Part shown: positions 35,703 through 52,403 of the stretch, piece by piece
Numbering within the stretch: the first letter of the stretch is position 1
How the letters are laid out: every line of letters starts with the position of its first letter
Assembly (NCBI RefSeq): GCF_033126985.1
Contig: NZ_AP024714.1
Coordinates: 1,628,990-1,692,989 of the forward strand
Direction of reading: 5' to 3'
Length of the DNA stretch: 64,000 nucleotides
DNA from: Methylomarinovum caldicuralii
GTDB taxonomy: Bacteria > Pseudomonadota > Gammaproteobacteria > Methylococcales > Methylothermaceae
Translations under genes and position numbers: made by a program
The notes under the pieces: model-generated
The model's input: only the letters and a program-made list of their open reading frames with translations
What the model was told of the DNA's origin: nothing
The model's database searches: none

Positions 35703-36056
35703 ATGCGCGTTCTGGCATTGGCTGTTTCGGTCTTCTGCGTCCTGTTGGCGCTTTTCGTGTTCCTACGAAAGGCGCGGACCGTGCTTGGCAGAAGGACCTC
35801 GCATGCCGAGAAGATGGTTGGCGCTGTCGGATTCGCCCTTCAGCCGATTACGCCGGGGAAGAAGGGTGATATCCGGATACGCGAGTTCGTCTGGCTAGCG
35901 TCATCGGATTTCACCATCAGCAAAGGCGAACCTGTCCGTGTGCTTGGTGCTCTGGACGAGAAATGCCTTGCGATCGTACCGGCGGGTTTGCAGATTGGGG
36001 ATGAAAACGAGGAAAAAACGCTTCTGAATCCTCCCCGTCGTTCAGCTCCGCGATAA
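35703..36056 (+). CDS. NfeD-like small membrane protein with altered C-terminus
   Basis: A 117-residue protein: one N-terminal membrane helix (VLALAVSVFCVLLALFVFL) and a domain resembling the NfeD C-terminal OB fold (MVGAVGFALQPITPGKKGDI, GEPVRVLGA). NfeD-type proteins partner stomatin-like membrane proteins. The last residues (NPPRRSAPR) and the TAA stop are supplied by the palindromic element at 36037-36082, which also ends an unrelated reading frame near 50216. The natural C-terminus has therefore probably been replaced. It reads opposite to the integron cassettes. Confidence 0.55.
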   Translation: MRVLALAVSVFCVLLALFVFLRKARTVLGRRTSHAEKMVGAVGFALQPITPGKKGDIRIREFVWLASSDFTISKGEPVRVLGALDEKCLAIVPAGLQIGDENEEKTLLNPPRRSAPR

Positions 36057-36082
36057 GCGGCCCCAGGACGGGTCCGCTTATC
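36037..36082 (-). repeat. GATAAGC palindromic mini-element, copy 1
   Basis: GATAAGC (36052-36058) and GCTTATC (36076-36082) are the ends of a 31-bp palindrome with loop CCCAGGACGGG. It is flanked on the left by GTCGTTCAGCTCCGC. The same unit recurs at 50197-50242 and, cut by IS66, at 49379-49392. The ends look like degenerate integron cores (GTTRRRY with one T changed). The partner arm of an attC is not found here. Confidence 0.7.
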
Positions 36083-36145
36083 GTCTCGTCTATGTGATGG
36101 AACATATAGAAATTCATCAAAAAGTGACACTTGTTTACCCTCCAT
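36083..36145 (-). pseudogene. 5' fragment of a cassette gene
   Basis: Directly after the attC core GTTAGGC a reading frame starts (ATG at 36145, or GTG at 36130 behind GGAGG) and encodes SLFDEFLYVPSHRRDD. It is cut at the palindromic element at 36082, so only the N-terminus remains. Product unknown. Confidence 0.45.
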
Positions 36146-42038: not shown

Positions 42039-44025
42039 GCCGGGTGACCGCGGGCGATTGCTCACCCGCGGTTCCCACAGATCCGGACGTGCCCGATTAA
42101 GGCATCCGGCTCCTCGGACTATGGCGTCGCTACGCAACGGGCAATTCCGTGAACCACGCGCGGTGGGGGGAGTGGGTATCGTTTGTACAGCCGCCCAAAA
42201 TGGTCCCGGTTCATCCGTTCCCGGTTGCGGCGGGACAACCATTTGTACCAGCGCCGTCTGACCTCGTACAGGAAGCGGGCCAGCGATTGGCTGTTGCCGA
42301 CGATCCCATAGTAGGCATAATGCCCCTTGAGTTTGCGGCTCAGGGCCGCTTGTTGGTCTGCAACCGGCCAGTGGCGGTGCATCCGGCACCAGTGGTTGAT
42401 CGCCTGCAGGGAGCGGCTGAGCCGGGCTTGGGCGGTCTTGCGTTTGACGACCCAACGCCCTTTCCTTGAGCGTCCCCAGTAGTGGGTGAATCCCAGGTAT
42501 TGGAAGCTCTGGCCTTTCCGTCCGGGTTTTCTGAAGTCGAGCAGGCGGGTTTTGTCCGGGTGCAGGCGCAGGCCGTATTTGGCCAGGCGCTTGCCCAGAA
42601 CGGCCAATACCCGCCGGGCGTCTTCTTCCCGTTTGAACACCAGGACCGCATCGTCGGCGAACCGGACTTCGAAGGCGCTGCCTTGCAGTCGCGGTTTGAC
42701 CGTCTGCTCGAACCACAGGTCGAGCACGTGATGCAGGTAGAGGTTGGCCAGCAGTGGGGAGATCACCCCACCTTGCGGTGTCCCTTGTTCGGGGTAGTGA
42801 AGCTGTCCGCCTTCCATGACACCGGCATTCAGCCATTTACCGATCACGCGGCAGATCACGCCGTCGCGCACCCTCTGCCCCAGAAAGTTCCGCAGCCGGT
42901 CCCGGTCCACATCGTCGAAGAAGTTTTGGATGTCCAGGTCGATGACCCAGCCACCGCCCATGGCCATCAGCCCGCCCCATAGCCTCTCCAGGGCCTGGTG
43001 GGCACTGCGTCCGGGCCGGAACCCGTAGGCGCAGTCGAGAAAGTCCTGCTCGAAGATGGGTTCCAGCGCCATCAGCACCGCCCGTTGCAGCACCTTGTCT
43101 TCCAGCGTGGGAATGCCGATCGGGCGGGTCTTTCCCGTTCCCGGCTTGGGCAGGTGGACGCGCCGTACCGCAGGCGCCCGATACCGGCCGGTCTTGAACC
43201 GTTCCAGCAGGCGCGTCAGGTTCTCCTCTAAGTCGGCTGCGTATTGGGATGCAGTCACGCCGTCCACCCCGGCGGCCCCGTCCTTGCGGGTGCGCCGCCA
43301 GGCTTCTTCCAGCCACACCACGTCGATGTGGTGGGCAATCGTGGTCAGTTCCAGCTTCGGTTCGATCCGGGCCAGTTCCGCTAGCTTCCGTTGTCGTGTT
43401 GAGATGTTCTCCTGGCTCGATGTCCCGGCCATCTGTCCCTCCGAAAGCCCCATCGTCCGACCTGCCGCTTCCCTCCATCGGGTCCCTTGGGGCAGGTTCC
43501 CCGACTTCCCAGGTACTATCGGCAGGCTCCGATTGCTCGATCACCTTCCCAGCGCGCTTCGTCGCCTTCGCGCGCCGGTACCCTGCTTCGTGTCCCGTTC
43601 GCTCCCATCGGCCGGACACCGCTCCGATGGGCCTGGGCCTTTTCTCACACGGCGCCCGCACCGCTCTTCCCGCAAGGAGTGATCGAGCCCTCCCAGGTTC
43701 CTGGGCGACCCTTGCCCTGCATGCCCCGCTCTTCGACCCCGGCGGAGGGATGATGCCAGGCCAGTACAGCACCACCCCTGTTGCCTTCCGTCCGTTCAAC
43801 AACGTCGGCTCCGCATTCCGTACTTTCGAGGCTCCATCACGCGGCCTACAGGCCCCCTGTGTACGCTTCGCAGTCGGGATCGCTCCTCGACCACGCAACA
43901 CTCGGTTCCGGCTGGTGGCCAGCCTTGGCCGGACAGGACTTGCACCTGTCAGGTCGCTCTGAAGGTTTCAGCGATGTCTTTCCTTCTACATAACTTCCTC
44001 CTTCTCCAGGCTTGGCCTGGCGCAA
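42039..44025 (-). mobile_element. Group II intron, copy 1 (1987 nt) in the right IS66 end
   Basis: Boundaries come from comparison with the uninterrupted IS66 right end at 45871: exon ...CCGTTCA, intron TTGCGCC...ACCCGGC, exon CGGGCTTGCC. The 5' end is TTGCG rather than GTGYG. A domain V hairpin (GAGCCGGATGCC...CGTCCGGATC, 42080-42112) lies seven bases after the reverse transcriptase stop, followed by a domain VI-like hairpin ACCGCGGG/CCCGCGGT. The single ORF lies in domain IV. Features suggest a bacterial group IIC-like intron. It is antisense to the IS66 gene. Confidence 0.88.
42119..43432 (-). CDS. Group II intron reverse transcriptase/maturase, copy 1
   Basis: A 437-residue RT of intron type. 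RT blocks: [72 protein letters not shown], and the catalytic FADD in [12 protein letters not shown] maturase X domain follows ([17 protein letters not shown]). No HNH endonuclease is visible, so mobility would use single-stranded or stem-loop targets, as in group IIC introns. The ATG at 43432 is preferred over 43453 because GGAGG is five bases upstream. Only a few residues differ from copy 2. Confidence 0.92.
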
Positions 44026-45878: not shown

Positions 45879-47339
45879 TCACGGGCTTGCCACTGGAAGT
45901 GGTTGAGGTTCCGGCAGGGGCAGGCGGAAGGTGACCTCGCCCTCTGCCATGCCCTGGGCGCAGATGGTCCGCAGGGTCTGATAGACGCCGATCTTGAGGC
46001 GCTTGCAGGTTTCGACCAGCGACAGGATCATGGGTCGGAAGCAGTCACCGCGATGCGACTGGCTGAAGAAACTGGTCTTGCGCCAGATGACATAGGGGCG
46101 TAGGGCACGCTCTGCCGTGTTGTTGGTCATCGGTACCCCGGGATGGTCCAGGAAGGTCCAGAACCTGGGAAAATCGTCCAACAACTTGCGGCAGCTGCGA
46201 CCGGTTTTGTTGTCGCCATGTCTTTGGGCGGCCTGTTCCAGTTCGCGCCGGAAGAGGGCTTTGAGGCGTTCCAATCGCCTTCGGTAGCGGTCGGATGGGT
46301 AATGGCTCTGTTGCCAGAGCTTGCCGTAGTGAACCGTCAGGCGGGCGGCCCGGAGCAGGCGTTCGCCATCTTCGCCGGCCTGTCCCTTGCGCCCGGCGAT
46401 CCGTTCCAGGTTGCGGATGAGATGCGCCCAGCAGTATTGGTGTGAGTCCTGGGGATGGTCGTTGTAGGCCCCGTGGCGGTCGGTCACCAGGATTCCCTGG
46501 AAATCCCCCAACAGCTCACCGGCCGCACCCTTGCCGCGGGAATAATGGGTCAGGAAATACGCCATCTGATCGGTCGTCAGCGCCCACAGCCAATAGATGC
46601 TGCGGCCCCGGTAGTGGCGGGTCTCGTCGGCATGGGCGATCAGCGCTTTTCTGACCGCTTCGCCAATCTGGTTGTAGACCGGACCCAGCCACGCCTGCAG
46701 CGGGATCTGGCTCTGGCTGATCGCCCCCAGGCTGAATCTCAGACCCCATTGTTCTTCCAGCAGCGCTTCGACTTCCCGCAGCGACAGGTGATAGCGCCCC
46801 GTCATCAAGCCAATCCACGCCACCAGCCCAGGTCCCATCTGGCCGCGGGGCACCTCATCCGGTAGCCGCCCCTGGTGCTTCTGACCACAACACCCACAGC
46901 GGCCTTCATACACCCGGTGTTCGACCACCCGGTAACGAATCTCGGGCAGGTCGAACACCTGATGGGGACGGAATCCCCGCACCGCCACCGACCCACCGCA
47001 CTCGCAGCGGCCATGGGGAAAGTAATGCCGGACCTCGTCCACTGCTTCTGCCGGAACCAGAGCCCGCTCGTGCCCGGGATGTCCCACCTGCGCCCCTTTC
47101 TTGCGTCCCGTCGGTCGCTTGCCCTTGCGCTCGGCGCGCTTCTTCGGGCTGTCCTGGGAAGGTGGTTGGGAGGAATTGTCGGACCCCAAGGCCAACTGTT
47201 CCTCCAGTTCTTCCACCCGCGCCTGGATCTGCTGAAATTCTCCCAGCGCCCGCCAAAGCGCTTCGATCACCCGGTGGCATTCCTCCACCGTCTCGGGCAA
47301 GGGAGGTGGGCGGCTCAGGTCCAGATCAAGTCTTTCCAT
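45879..47339 (-). CDS. IS66-family transposase, intact copy
   Basis: A 486-residue single-ORF IS66 transposase (the type that moves without separate TnpA/TnpB). Domains in order: leucine-rich coiled coil (VEELEEQLALGSDNSSQPPS), zinc ribbon with CECGG and CGCCG, a helix-rich DNA-binding part, and the DDE core with ADETRHYRGRSIYWLWALT, VTDRHGAYNDHP and a late Glu in NNTAERALRPYV. The ATG at 47339 is chosen since AGGAG precedes it and copy 1 lacks an upstream ATG. It seems functional, although the intron now sits between it and its outer end. Confidence 0.92.
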   Translation of the reverse strand: MERLDLDLSRPPPLPETVEECHRVIEALWRALGEFQQIQARVEELEEQLALGSDNSSQPPSQDSPKKRAERKGKRPTGRKKGAQVGHPGHERALVPAEAVDEVRHYFPHGRCECGGSVAVRGFRPHQVFDLPEIRYRVVEHRVYEGRCGCCGQKHQGRLPDEVPRGQMGPGLVAWIGLMTGRYHLSLREVEALLEEQWGLRFSLGAISQSQIPLQAWLGPVYNQIGEAVRKALIAHADETRHYRGRSIYWLWALTTDQMAYFLTHYSRGKGAAGELLGDFQGILVTDRHGAYNDHPQDSHQYCWAHLIRNLERIAGRKGQAGEDGERLLRAARLTVHYGKLWQQSHYPSDRYRRRLERLKALFRRELEQAAQRHGDNKTGRSCRKLLDDFPRFWTFLDHPGVPMTNNTAERALRPYVIWRKTSFFSQSHRGDCFRPMILSLVETCKRLKIGVYQTLRTICAQGMAEGEVTFRLPLPEPQPLPVASP

Positions 47340-47380
47340 GGCCCGCATTCTCCTGAATCTTCAGGCACTTGGCAAGACCG

Positions 47381-49367
47381 GCCGGGTGACCGCGGGCGAT
47401 TGCTCACCCGCGGTTCCCACAGATCCGGACGTGCCCGATTAAGGCATCCGGCTCCTCGGACTATGGCGTCGCTACGCAACGGGCAATTCCGTGAACCACG
47501 CGCGGTGGGGGGAGTGGGTATCGTTTGTACAGCCGCCCAAAATGGTCCCGGTTCATCCGTTCCCGGTTGCGGCGGGACAACCATTTGTACCAGCGCCGTC
47601 TGACCTCGTACAGGAAGCGGGCCAGCGATTGGCTGTTGCCGACGATCCCATAGTAGGCATAATGCCCCTTGAGTTTGCGGCTCAGGGCCGCTTGTTGGTC
47701 TGCAACCGGCCAGTGGCGGTGCATCCGGCACCAGTGGTTGATCGCCTGCAGGGAGCGGCTGAGCCGGGCTTGGGCGGTCTTGCGTTTGACGACCCAACGC
47801 CCTTTCCTTGAGCGTCCCCAGTAGTGGGTGAATCCCAGGTATTGGAAGCTCTGGCCTTTCCGTCCGGGTTTTCTGAAGTCGAGCAGGCGGGTTTTGTCCG
47901 GGTGCAGGCGCAGGCCGTATTTGGCCAGGCGCTTGCCCAGAACGGCCAATACCCGCCGGGCGTCTTCTTCCCGTTCGAACACCAGGACCGCATCGTCGGC
48001 GAACCGGACTTCGAAGGCGCTGCCTTGCAGTCGCGGTTTGACCGTCTGCTCGAACCACAGGTCGAGCACGTGATGCAGGTAGAGGTTGGCCAGCAGCGGG
48101 GAGATCACCCCACCTTGCGGTGTCCCTTGTTCGGGGTAGTGAAGCTGTCCGCTCTCCATGACGCCGGCATTCAGCCATTTACCGATCACGCGGCAGATCA
48201 CGCCGTCGCGCACCCTCTGCCCCAGAAAGTTCCGCAGCCGGTCCCGGTCCACGTCGTCGAAGAAGTTTTGGATGTCCAGGTCGATGACCCAGCCACCGCC
48301 CATGGCCATCAGCCCGCCCCATAGCCTCTCCAGGGCCTGGTGGGCACTGCGTCCGGGCCGGAACCCGTAGGCGCAGTCGAGAAAGTCCTGCTCGAAGATG
48401 GGTTCCAGCGCCATCAGCACCGCCCGTTGCAGCACCTTGTCTTCCAGCGTGGGAATGCCGATCGGGCGGGTCTTTCCCGTTCCCGGCTTGGGCAGGTGGA
48501 CGCGCCGTACCGCAGGCGCCCGATACCGGCCGGTCTTGAACCGTTCCAGCAGGCGCGTCAGGTTCTCCTCTAAGGCGGCTGCGTATTGGGATGCAGTCAC
48601 GCCGTCCACCCCGGCGGCCCCGTCCTTGCGGGTGCGCCGCCAGGCTTCTTCCAGCCACACCACGTCGATGTGGTGGGCAATCGTGGTCAGTTCCAGCTTC
48701 GGTTCGATCCGGGCCAGTTCCACTAGCTTCCGTTGTCGTGTTGAGATGTTTTCCTGGCTCGATGTCCCGGCCATCTGCCCCTCCGAAAGCCCCATCGTCC
48801 GACCTGCCGCTTCCCTCCATCGGGTCCCTTGGGGCAGGTTCCCCGACTTCCCAGGTACTATCGGCAGGCTCCGATTGCTCGATCACCTTCCCAGCGCGCT
48901 TCGTCGCCTTCGCGCGCCGGTACCCTGCTTCGTGTCCCGTTCGCTCCCATCGGCCGGACACCGCTCCGATGGGCCTGGGCCTTTTCTCACACGGCGCCCG
49001 CACCGCTCTTCCCGCAGGGAGTGTTCGAGCCCTCCCAGGTTCCTGGGCGACCCTTGCCCTGCATGCCCCGCTCTTCGACCCCGGCGGAGGGATGATGCCA
49101 GGCCAGTACAGCACCACCCCTGTTGCCTTCCGTCCGTTCAATAACGTCGGCTCCGCATTCCGTACTTTCGAGGCTCCATCACGCGGCCTACAGGCCCCCT
49201 GTGTACGCTTCGCAGTCGGGATCGCTCCTCGACCACGCAACACTCGGTTCCGGCTGGTGGCCAGCCTTGGCCGGACAGGACTTGCACCTGTCAGGTCGCT
49301 CTGAAGGTTTCAGCGATGTCTTTCCTTCTACATAACTTCCTCCTTCTCCAGGCTTGGCCTGGCGCAA
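47381..49367 (-). mobile_element. Group II intron, copy 2 (1987 nt) in the left IS66 end
   Basis: The same intron as copy 1, same length and ends. The empty site is the IS66 left end at 39064: exon ACCCGTTCA, intron, exon CGGTCTTGCC. Domain V is at 47422-47454. Here the intron has the same orientation as the transposase and lies in its 5' leader, so splicing would restore the leader. Confidence 0.9.
47461..48774 (-). CDS. Group II intron reverse transcriptase/maturase, copy 2
   Basis: A 437-residue RT almost identical to copy 1; visible changes are Ala to Val (LVELARIE), Asp to Ala (YAAALEEN), Gly to Ser (MESGQLHY) and Lys to Glu (VFEREED). All RT blocks, FADD and the maturase domain are intact. 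The near identity with copy 1 indicates a recent move or copying between the two IS66 elements. The ATG at 48774 lies five bases after GGAGG. Confidence 0.92.
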
Positions 49368-49385
49368 TGAACGGGTACCGGGTCC

Positions 49386-49456
49386 GCTTATCGCACAAGC
49401 TCACCTGCTGCGGTGGAGCGCAGCGGAACCGCAGCAGGTGAAGCAATTTGTTGGGA
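49386..49456 (-). other. attC site after the lipoprotein cassette
   Basis: On the minus strand: R'' TCCCAAC (49450-49456), then CACCTGCTGCGG, a short centre, CCGCAGCAGGTG (a perfect 12-bp pair), and at the R' position GATAAGC instead of GTTRRRY. R'' is the exact complement of the core GTTGGGA that opens this cassette at 49966-49972, as expected for one cassette. Confidence 0.72.
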
Positions 49457-49466
49457 ATTTATGAAA

Positions 49467-49955
49467 TCAATTTATCCTTATCAGCTGGGACTTATACTCT
49501 TCAGGAACATCATCAATCGACATTACATAAATTCCTTTATAATTGATTATTCGTGCTTGTTTTTCATAAAGCGATACAGACACAATTTTTGGAAGTTTCC
49601 ACATTGCTCCGGTTGCTGGGTCTATGATCAGAAAGCCAATGAGCCCACCAAATAATATGTTTCCAATATACCAACCATCAAGTTTACACGACAAAGTTGT
49701 CATTTGAGGCTCATATCCTTTCTTTTTAAAAATAATGGTGTAATCCGCACAATCGAAATAACCTGAGCTTGCAGATAAAGTAACCATTGCGGGAGTTCTT
49801 CCTTTGTGCACAATCATTCCGTCCTCATCCTTGATTTCAAATTCAGCGCCATTTGGAGAACTATTTATTGTGACAGGATAAGTGGAATCGCTAATTATGC
49901 TCGCACATCCCGACATTACAAAAGCAATCACTAACACCAAGAGATAGTTCGACAT
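49467..49955 (-). CDS. Cassette-encoded PEGA-like lipoprotein
   Basis: A 162-residue protein with a lipoprotein signal (LLVLVIAFVMSGCASI; lipidated Cys17). It is followed by a PEGA-like beta domain (INSSPNGAEFEIKDEDG, HKGRTPAMVTLSA, IIFKKKGYEPQ) and a hydrophobic glycine-rich segment WYIGNILFGGLIGFLIIDPA. It probably sits in the envelope; function unknown. The ATG is 16 bases inside the cassette, and its ribosome site GGGAGGA is formed partly by the core GTTGGGA. The DNA is AT-richer than the chromosome. Confidence 0.82.
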   Translation of the reverse strand: MSNYLLVLVIAFVMSGCASIISDSTYPVTINSSPNGAEFEIKDEDGMIVHKGRTPAMVTLSASSGYFDCADYTIIFKKKGYEPQMTTLSCKLDGWYIGNILFGGLIGFLIIDPATGAMWKLPKIVSVSLYEKQARIINYKGIYVMSIDDVPEEYKSQLIRIN

Positions 49956-49965
49956 TCTCTAATCC

Positions 49966-50218
49966 TCCCAACGCGGAGCTGAGCGACTTCCGTTCTGTCG
50001 GCCCTGGATGGGCCGGCAGGACGGATGTTCGACTCTAGCGCCTTGATAGGCGGAGCCCTGCATTGTTCCGTTGATTCTTGGCAGTGTATATTTTTTCATC
50101 GGTGCCACCTTGGCTTCGATTGTCAAAAGGCTCCGCCGTCAAAGAACCCCCCTTCATTCCCTTCAATCCACCATTTTCCTTCCCTGAATCCTTCCCGTCG
50201 CTCAGCTCCGCGATAAGC
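49966..50218 (-). other. Long attC-like palindrome of a geneless cassette
   Basis: On the minus strand GCTTATC-GCGGAGCTGAGCGAC (50218-50197) is matched by GTCGCTCAGCTCCGC-GTTGGGA (49987-49966): a perfect 15-bp inverted repeat carrying R''-like and R' cores in the right order. The 253-bp span is long for an attC. Inside are two more hairpins (GGCGGAGCC/GGCTCCGCC; GTCCTGCCGGCCC with its near-complement). No convincing gene is present in this 49956-50391 gap. Confidence 0.5.
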
Positions 50219-50242
50219 GGGCCCAGGACGGGTCCGCTTATC
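50197..50242 (-). repeat. GATAAGC palindromic mini-element, copy 2
   Basis: GATAAGC (50212-50218) and GCTTATC (50236-50242) bound the same 31-bp palindrome as at 36052-36082, with one base different, followed by GTCGCTCAGCTCCGC. It lies exactly where the R' of one attC-like site and the R'' of the next should be, so it looks like a minimal cassette without a gene. Confidence 0.65.
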
Positions 50243-50364
50243 GGTTTGCGTTACCTGCGTGTGGGCGGGCGTGGACAATGCTTGGGAGCAGGAAAATGCT
50301 GAGGCCAGAAAAATGCTTGTAAATGCCGCAGAATCCCACACGTCAGGTGCACGCTTTGTTGGGC
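50236..50364 (-). other. attC site of the first cassette
   Basis: On the minus strand: R'' GCCCAAC (50358-50364), ACCTGACGTGTGGG, a variable centre, CCCACACGCAGGT, and GATAAGC at the R' position. The arms pair perfectly apart from one unpaired A, an attC hallmark. R'' is the exact complement of the core GTTGGGC at the attI junction (50937-50943). Confidence 0.75.
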
Positions 50365-50391: not shown

Positions 50392-50886
50392 TTACCGAAT
50401 CAAATTCTCAACCTTGTTCAGGGATTGTTCGGCTTCGTTTCTTGTTTCAAAACTACTTATCTCGATTTTTTGCCCATCCTTGAAGATAAATTGCAGGCTA
50501 TAAGTGGATGGACCATCAGTCCAATCATGTGTGTTGATTGAACTTTTGGCAATATCGCTAAATTTATAAGTTTTCCTTCGGAGAGGCATGAGTGCAGATT
50601 CGTAAGAATGGTGAATGGTCTTGGATTTTGCCAAAAATATAAAAGTTTGATTCAACCCAAAAAGTCCAGCCGCTACAAATAAACCACCTACCAAAATTGC
50701 GCCAACAGAAATGAGAATAGGGATTATCAAATAAAGGCTAAATCCATTCCACTTGGGGCGGATAAGAAGTTCATAAGGCGCAAGGAACATCGGGAATAGA
50801 CCAACGATAGCCAGAAAGATTCTTACTCCATTGGGCACTTTTTCAATGAAAACGATTTGACCATCTGTTTCTTCAACTTTAGGCAT
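50392..50886 (-). CDS. Cassette-encoded membrane protein, unknown function
   Basis: A 164-residue protein with two to three hydrophobic helices (VRIFLAIVGLFPMFLAPYEL; YLIIPILISVGAILVGGLFV) followed by a soluble tail (RRKTYKFSDIAKSSINTHDW). The family is not recognised; the layout is like many small cassette membrane proteins. AGGAG lies before the ATG. It is the first cassette after attI, transcribed away from intI, and AT-richer than the chromosome. Confidence 0.8.
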   Translation of the reverse strand: MPKVEETDGQIVFIEKVPNGVRIFLAIVGLFPMFLAPYELLIRPKWNGFSLYLIIPILISVGAILVGGLFVAAGLFGLNQTFIFLAKSKTIHHSYESALMPLRRKTYKFSDIAKSSINTHDWTDGPSTYSLQFIFKDGQKIEISSFETRNEAEQSLNKVENLIR

Positions 50887-50936: not shown

Positions 50937-50943
50937 GCCCAAC
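50937..50943 (-). other. attI-cassette junction core GTTGGGC
   Basis: Between intI and the first cassette gene the minus strand reads CTGTTGGGCTG. GTTGGGC fits the GTTRRRY integron core and is the complement of R'' in the first attC. The attI proper would be the roughly 70 bp towards intI (50944-51011). No clear LexA box (CTGT-N8-ACAG) is seen there. Confidence 0.65.
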
Positions 50944-51011
50944 AGTAAAATAGACAGAATCCATCTCATCAAGACTAGACAGATTCCGCCTAATCCTCTA
51001 CCATCACCTCC

Positions 51012-52403
51012 ATGGTCGAACCTACCATACGAAAAAGTTCTGAGTCAACCCTCCCTGTCAAGCCCTATTCCAACTGGCAGCGTTATCTCGATCTACTGGA
51101 ACGGCATCAGGTGCCGGAGCGCTGCCGGCGGTGGTACGTCCGTCATGTCGAGGCGTTTCTGGCTGCTTTCCCCGGACGCAGGCTTCGGGAAATCGGCCAT
51201 GACGAGCTGGGCGATTATCTGGCCCAGCTAGCCCGCAACACCCAGGCCGACTGGCAGCTGCGCCAGAAAGTGGATGCGATCCGTCTGCTGCTGGAGTTGG
51301 CGGGAAATCGCCAGGCAATGATGATCGACTGGAATTACTGGGCTGAAATGGGAAAGACGATTTCTCAGGACCACCCAACGCTGGCCCGGGAGCTGCCGCC
51401 TGAGGCGCTGTTGCGCAAGGCGCTTCAGCCGGAGGATTTGCCGGAAGCGTCTCGCGACGCGGTGATCCAGATGGTCAGGATCCTGCGCACTCACCACTAC
51501 TCCATTCGCACCGAAGCGGCTTACCGCGACTGGGTGCTGCGTTTTCTCGCCCTCACCGGCCGTCCGCCGGAGGCGCTGGAATCCAGGGATGTCTGTGCCT
51601 TCCTGTCCCATCTGGCGATGGAAAGACGGGTTTCCCAAAGTACCCAGCGGCAGGCGCTGAACGCCCTCAACTTCTTTTTCCGTCACCTGCTGGAGCGAGA
51701 ACTGGATTTGGGTGACGGGTTTCGCCCCGCCAAACGTGGCCGCCGCCTGCCGGTGGTGTTGAGCCGTGACGAGGTCGCCCGTCTGTTGGATGAGCTGGAA
51801 GGGACGGCACAGCTGATGGCTGGGCTTCTGTATGGCACCGGTATGCGCCTCATGGAATTGATCCGCCTTAGGGTGCAGGACGTGGATTTCGAACGCCAGC
51901 TGATCGTGGTGCGCGACGGCAAGGGGCGCAAGGACCGCGTCGTTCCCCTGCCGCAGCGCTATCGCGACGCCCTGCGGCGGCATCTGGAGGCCCGCCGCCG
52001 TCAGTTCGAACGTGACCGGATCGAAGGACCGATATCCGTCTATCTGCCCGATGCGCTGGCGCGCAAGTATCCCAATGCCGCCACCGACTGGCGCTGGCAG
52101 TATGTGTTCGCCTCCGGCCGTCTGTCCCACGACCCGCGCTCCGGCCAGCGGCGCCGCCATCACATCCACGAGAACACCCTGCAGAAGGCGATCCAGAAAG
52201 CCGCCCAGCGGGCCGCCATTCCCAAACGGGTCAACTGCCACGCCCTGCGCCATTCCTTCGCCACCCATCTGCTGGAGGCCGGCTACGACATCCGTACGGT
52301 GCAGGAACTGCTCGGGCATGCGGACGTTTCCACCACCATGATTTATACTCACGTGCTCAACAAACCTGGCCTGCCGCCGGTGGTCAGCCCGGCGGATTTC
52401 TGA
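51012..52403 (+). CDS. intI: Integron integrase IntI with long N-terminus
   Basis: A 463-residue tyrosine recombinase. Catalytic residues: Arg279 ([12 protein letters not shown]), Lys near 304 (DGKGRKDR), HxxR 410-413 (CHALRHSF), His436 (LLGHAD) and Tyr445 (MIYTHV). The insert that separates integron integrases from XerC/D is present at about 345-387: [33 protein letters not shown]. Typical IntI are about 320-340 residues; here about 125 extra N-terminal residues look like a second core-binding domain ([20 protein letters not shown]). It moves cassettes between attC and attI. Three bases separate its stop from the nif3-like gene. Confidence 0.93.

Follow-up and report, generated by a model that had tools for sequence, protein, structure and literature searches.

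A putative geneless integron cassette with a GAT-core attC and inverted copies of its attC arms in Methylomarinovum caldicuralii

Integron cassettes are thought to persist through useful genes, the consensus takes the GTT of the core to be invariant, and attG sites tolerate GWT. Cassettes without genes are an established kind; many of them carry promoters (PMC11014356), and sRNAs are also known in them (PMC8876359). ORF-less cassettes, such as those of Vibrio superintegrons and Treponema, have G/TTRRRY junctions (in motifs, a slash marks the crossover or unit boundary) and a 3'-end attC of classical type, and have been reported as promoter or sRNA carriers (PMC11014356, PMC8876359). The locus described here likewise has these junctions, a 3'-end attC and no ORF, but its length is almost all attC plus inverted copies of the attC arms, and its core is GAT. 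It matches the canonical Vibrio attC VCR2/1, in which the extrahelical bases are G16, T20 and T24 (PMC2727003), in spacer length, extrahelical positions (16, 20 and 24) and terminal hairpin; unlike VCR2/1, it has R'' RCCTATC and R' GATRRRY, and upstream a further copy of the L'-R' arm that is perfectly complementary. Unusual targets are tolerated by IntI (PMC12901181). The attG sites and delta-attI cassettes are likewise non-classical sites used by the enzyme, but they are targets or attI-derived ends, whereas the altered part of this unit is its own attC core. In the part of the literature covered by our search, neither a GAT-core cassette nor inverted attC arms within a cassette were described.

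The window (the whole 64,000-nucleotide stretch analyzed) contains one of three copies of positions 49973-50242, all 100% identical, found by searching the entire 2.69-Mb M. caldicuralii genome. The full unit, 49967-50243, also recurs three times at 100% identity, as the window copy (A), at 1741042-1741318 (B) and at 1739964-1740239 (C). Read on the minus strand, which is the array orientation, the copies run from G/ATAAGC through the unit to GCTCCGC/GTTRRRY. All three thus span G/ATAAGC to G/TTRRRY, each between different integron neighbors: an attC of a gene cassette, an attC and an attI on the left, and the cores GTTGGGA, GTTAGGC and GTTAGCC on the right. Each copy lies between attI or attC and another core with the crossover after G, and the junction sequences show entry of the unit, at the point of IntI crossover, into attI and into several attC sites. 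Copy C is preceded by GATTCTGTCTATTTTACT, which also precedes GTTGGGC at the window attI beside IntI (51012-52403), so that one genome holds an occupied and an unoccupied attI. No ORF of at least 90 aa is present in 49973-50242, and the interval counts as gene-less (limit set at 70 aa); shorter open frames are not conserved, and an 89-aa frame in the relative G008 is a chance one. As far as DNA comparison can establish it, the interval is a complete geneless integron cassette that was mobile in the past and whose structure has been conserved. The first-pass annotation had proposed such a cassette, made of little beyond recombination arms and recurring in the array, and the junctions of the three full copies bear this out. 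It had taken 46 bp as the repeated unit; the repetition is real, but the mobile unit is about 270 bp and the 46 bp are its leader.

The 31-nt GATAAGC...GCTTATC palindrome had been located correctly at 36052 and 50212 (36052-36082 and 50212-50242), and a half copy lies at 49379-49392. It has 13-bp arms with one G.T pair and a 5-nt loop, and is more exactly an entry core, a short hairpin and the complement of the core. This palindrome occurs only four times in the genome. A 60-bp end is found at 36024-36083 (95% identity) and a relic at genome position 848383 (82% identity). In the latter (L011, 985-1029) the leader reads GGTAAGC and GCTTAAC beside an attC-like hairpin, and is perhaps an ancestral canonical-core form. 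The copy at 49386 is indeed interrupted; what ends it is flanking sequence of a group II intron (RF02005, 49069-49284) rather than IS66 as had been suggested, the IS66 transposase (45879-47348) lying farther from the half palindrome than the intron.

A transposase-moved MITE or REP-like repeat with terminal inverted repeats, which merely lands near integrons, would also have inverted arms, a palindrome and several copies, and some copies in the relatives G142 and G008 do lie outside gene-cassette arrays. We consider this highly improbable, since copies per genome are few, the crossover at attI and attC is exactly that of IntI, there is no target duplication and an attC with extrahelical bases lies inside. 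Dispersed copies independent of integron cores were not found. Many copies away from integron cores had been named as the sign of an ordinary REP-like repeat; in this genome they are few and all at integron cores or attC remnants, which speaks against that repeat.

From its entry, the unit consists of GATAAGC, a 17-nt hairpin, GCTTATC, the leader arm of 15 nt, a body of about 130 nt, and the attC (Table 1). The leader arm GCGGAGCTGAGCGAC and the attC arm GTCGCTCAGCTCCGC are perfectly complementary over 15 bp, as noted earlier. Overlooked at that stage was the normal attC with extrahelical bases that forms the final 86 nt. Its order is GCCTATC-AAGGC-GCT[A]GAG[T]CGA[A]C (extrahelical bases in brackets), hairpin, GTCGCTCAGCTCCGC and G/TT; counted from R'', positions 8-12 are the 5-nt spacer, L'' begins at 13, and extra bases stand at 16, 20 and 24. 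The core is GAT/ATC where GTT/AAC is normal. A 3'-end position, R''/R', L''/L', a spacer and extrahelical bases are thus all present, although weak in Thiorhodococcus, and each of the eight sequences examined has its extra base at position 16 (A, A, T, G, G, C, G and A). The ordinary cassettes on both sides have normal attC sites. An earlier reading as a single 250-nt attC without extrahelical bases was superseded by the 86-nt inner attC. A small protein encoded by the conserved GCCTATCAAGACGCT block was rejected because the Thiorhodococcus sequence has a stop there and the changes affect codon positions one and two.

Table 1. Features of the proposed cassette and its surroundings (window coordinates).
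Feature	Position	Strand	Evidence or remark
Complete geneless cassette (proposed), copy A	49973..50242	- (array orientation)	identical full-length copies at two other integron junctions
Entry core R' GATAAGC, GAT replacing GTT, crossover G/ATAAGC	50236..50242	-	junctions of copies A, B, C
P0 palindrome: entry core, 17-nt hairpin, leader R'' GCTTATC	50212..50242	.	hairpin retained with changed bases in relatives
Leader arm GCGGAGCTGAGCGAC, inverted copy of attC L'-R' arm	50197..50211	-	perfect 15-bp complement; covaries in relatives
P2 5' strand GGCGGAGCC	50129..50137	-	pairs with 50049-50057; counterpart strands in relatives
P2 3' strand GGCTCCGCC, overlaps attC R''	50049..50057	-	pairing with 50129-50137
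Cassette's attC, 86 nt	49966..50051	-	R'' GCCTATC 50045-50051, spacer 50040-50044, L'' 50037-50039
attC extrahelical bases	16 at 50036, 20 at 50032, 24 at 50028	-	
P3 hairpin, attC variable terminal structure	49989..50025	.	
attC L'-R' arm GTCGCTCAGCTCCGC	49973..49987	-	
Exit core GTTGGGA, part of next cassette	49966..49972	-	
Truncated copy, leader end only	36024..36083	-	array's far end, beside NfeD-like gene
Half palindrome GATAAGCGGACCCG	49379..49392	-	cut at flank of group II intron
Group II intron 5' domains (RF02005)	49069..49284	-	maturase ORF (RT/maturase) 47461-48795
Ordinary attC of upstream gene cassette	50236..50364	-	ORF 50392-50886
Ordinary attC of downstream gene cassette, R' now GATAAGC	49386..49456	-	ORF 49467-49955
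attI, core GTTGGGC at 50937-50943	50937..51000	-	identical sequence before copy C at 1739.9 kb
Integron integrase IntI, 463 aa, N-terminal extension	51012..52403	+	TIGR02249 435.6 bits

The same architecture, with compensatory changes, recurs in another species of Methylothermaceae, in a MAG of Thiorhodococcus and in two further gammaproteobacterial families. In G008, a Methylothermaceae MAG of the same genus (JALSIB010000006.1), the leader reads GATAAGC-GGCGCC-ATCCT-GGCGCC-GCTTATC. The Thiorhodococcus copy (JARIBS010000129.1) is located at attI and has the arms GCGGAGCTGTGCGAC and GTCGCACAGCTCCGC. G142 carries a 173-nt short form in five copies, identical apart from a 1-nt change in one of them; four occupy attI-like sites and the fifth follows an attC. 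The attI core of G142 is followed by GATAAGC...GTTAGGC, where in the congener G258 attI is followed directly by GTTAGGC. The G257 copy lies between attC and GTTAGCC, and its core covaries as GATAGGC with GCCTATC. In G002 and G005 there are attC parts, and those of G005 include a compensated G-to-A/C-to-T pair. Across relatives the attC is 81-98 nt long, with extrahelical base, spacer and terminal hairpin, and base changes on both sides occur in P0, P1 and P3; RNAalifold found 15 pairs changed on both sides with pairing preserved. The P1 covariation could alternatively come from gene conversion between inverted repeats.

An architecture-only scan of 4.5 million strand-bases, requiring a core, its near-complement within 45 nt and an arm whose complement precedes G[AT]T, yielded six distinct units, whereas shuffled copies yielded none. 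All six enter with GAT, although GTT was permitted, and exit with GTT; in place of the GTTRRRY core and RYYYAAC inverse core of integron cassettes, they have a GAT core and RYYYATC. One, in a congener (G005, L016:2349-2539), is unrelated in sequence and follows the same plan, with arms GGATCAGCTGTTGAG, R'' GCCTATC and L'' GTT[C]GAGCC/GGCTCAAC. Another explanation is that decayed attC remnants in a dead array combine GTT-to-GAT core decay with a chance inverted duplication. Truncated copies exist, at 36 kb, at 848 kb, in L092 and in L093. However, the GAT/ATC changes have compensating partners in three boxes and are common to four families, and the identity of copies at different junctions implies that they moved recently, so that we give decay very little credence.

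The unit is rare and patchy. Among 311 order genomes, model R1 recovered it in M. caldicuralii, G008 and G004 (degenerate), among 369 class genomes in M. caldicuralii, G142 and G257, and among 398 phylum genomes credibly in M. caldicuralii only. Weak model matches in G424, G124, G247, G965 and G1008 were in coding-like DNA or too weak, and an internal-motif match in G249 was in coding-like DNA with the leader absent. Plasmid, phage and E. coli collections gave no match to the unit; IMG/VR held no exact internal motif, and its palindrome matches had chance-level scores with the covariance model. Taken together, the comparisons indicate that a 270-base geneless piece has moved among the integrons of bacteria from several families.

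Six complete copies occupy first place at an attI or attI-like site (copy C, Thiorhodococcus and four in G142), which may reflect recent entry or blocked further entry. Two G142 sites are between chromosomal genes far from IntI, with flanks that we take to be cobS/cobQ and a 345-aa ORF/YjbQ-like gene. The G008 copy has no recognizable attI or attC in front. Dispersed attI-like sites away from intI were seen in G142 (C13, C17 and C54; L080, L081 and L083), with a geneless cassette in each; in G258 the C13 site is at the orthologous place and the contig ends after GTTA. G142 also has reduced versions beside chromosomal genes, one of leader plus arms only, about 68 nt (L092, 1500-1560), and one of leader palindrome only (L093, 1500-1545).

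The unit folds strongly (z-score -8.2 against dinucleotide shuffles). In silico, the P1 fold of the bottom strand is more stable than the leader-blocked fold by 8.5-18 kcal/mol. Blocking the leader gave an attC with unpaired bases 16 and 20 in M. caldicuralii and G008; L'' was still folded into P2 in G142 and G005b, and the full L''/L' stem was not formed in Thiorhodococcus, where L''/L' pairing is imperfect and IntI has decayed. In the short form the 5' strand of P2 is nearly complementary to the R''-L'' arm (G142, CTGCTCCATCATCTTGAAAGGC versus GCCTATCAAGACGCTGGAGCAG), and the inverted R''-L'' arm copy is clearest in this type. VCR mutants without extrahelical bases and with a paired spacer show an 8.5x10^4-fold loss (PMC2727003). 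The favored P1/P2 fold together with this loss led us to propose masked and open states.

Under this proposal, the single-stranded bottom strand would alternate between two folds. In the open one the attC hairpin would be free for IntI, which should recognize the attC in the final 81-98 nt, to excise or insert the cassette. In the masked, more stable fold (P1+P2) both attC arms would be held in stems without extrahelical bases, the pairing abolishing these bases and the unpaired spacer that IntI needs, and such stems would be a very poor substrate for recombination. We infer from the modeled folds that P1/P2 pairing masks attC and regulates recombination. The leader could thereby keep a cassette without a selectable gene stable after insertion, and a unit placed first behind attI with a GAT core might hinder further insertions there. 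Overall, the unit is probably a pure recombination unit, in which a GAT-core attC and inverted arms would form a switch between two folds.

Strong folding and conserved stems would also fit an ordinary ORF-less cassette whose cargo, a promoter or small RNA, acts at the RNA or transcriptional level and pairs in RNA, as cassettes with promoters or sRNAs are known (PMC11014356, PMC8876359). We regard this as unlikely: the window copy has no sigma-70-like promoter consensus, the conserved bases coincide with attC boxes, and no Rfam family reached its gathering score. Clostridiales-1 scored 41.9 against a 48-bit cut-off at one G142 locus only, driven by a hairpin.

About 60 kb away (L010, genome 1737000-1744500) there is a second partial integron, in which attI and the truncated start of intI are accompanied by two cassettes with genes and two without; a group II intron and a transposase flank it. 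Near-identical group II introns occur in the array region at 43727-43942 and 49069-49284, and a third at genome 1739.5 kb. The window IntI has an N-terminal extension of about 150 aa resembling a second core-binding (SAM-like) domain, seen also in G142, G008, G002, G005 and about 40 other genomes. Co-evolution of the unit with N-extended IntI was considered and dropped; the extension matches 46 of the 369 class genomes, with none found in G257, which argues against a tight link.

That these units form a distinct class of selfish self-masking cassettes, combining a GAT-core attC with "anti-attC" switch arms and possibly plugging attI, is a tentative suggestion to which we give somewhat less than even chances. 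A gene-free GAT-core family conserved across several families would, if true, be a minimal parasite of integrons, and would show that the core can change when both partners change. Searches that require GTT would miss such cassettes. The unit may also serve as a natural construct for asking whether a cassette regulates its own mobility.
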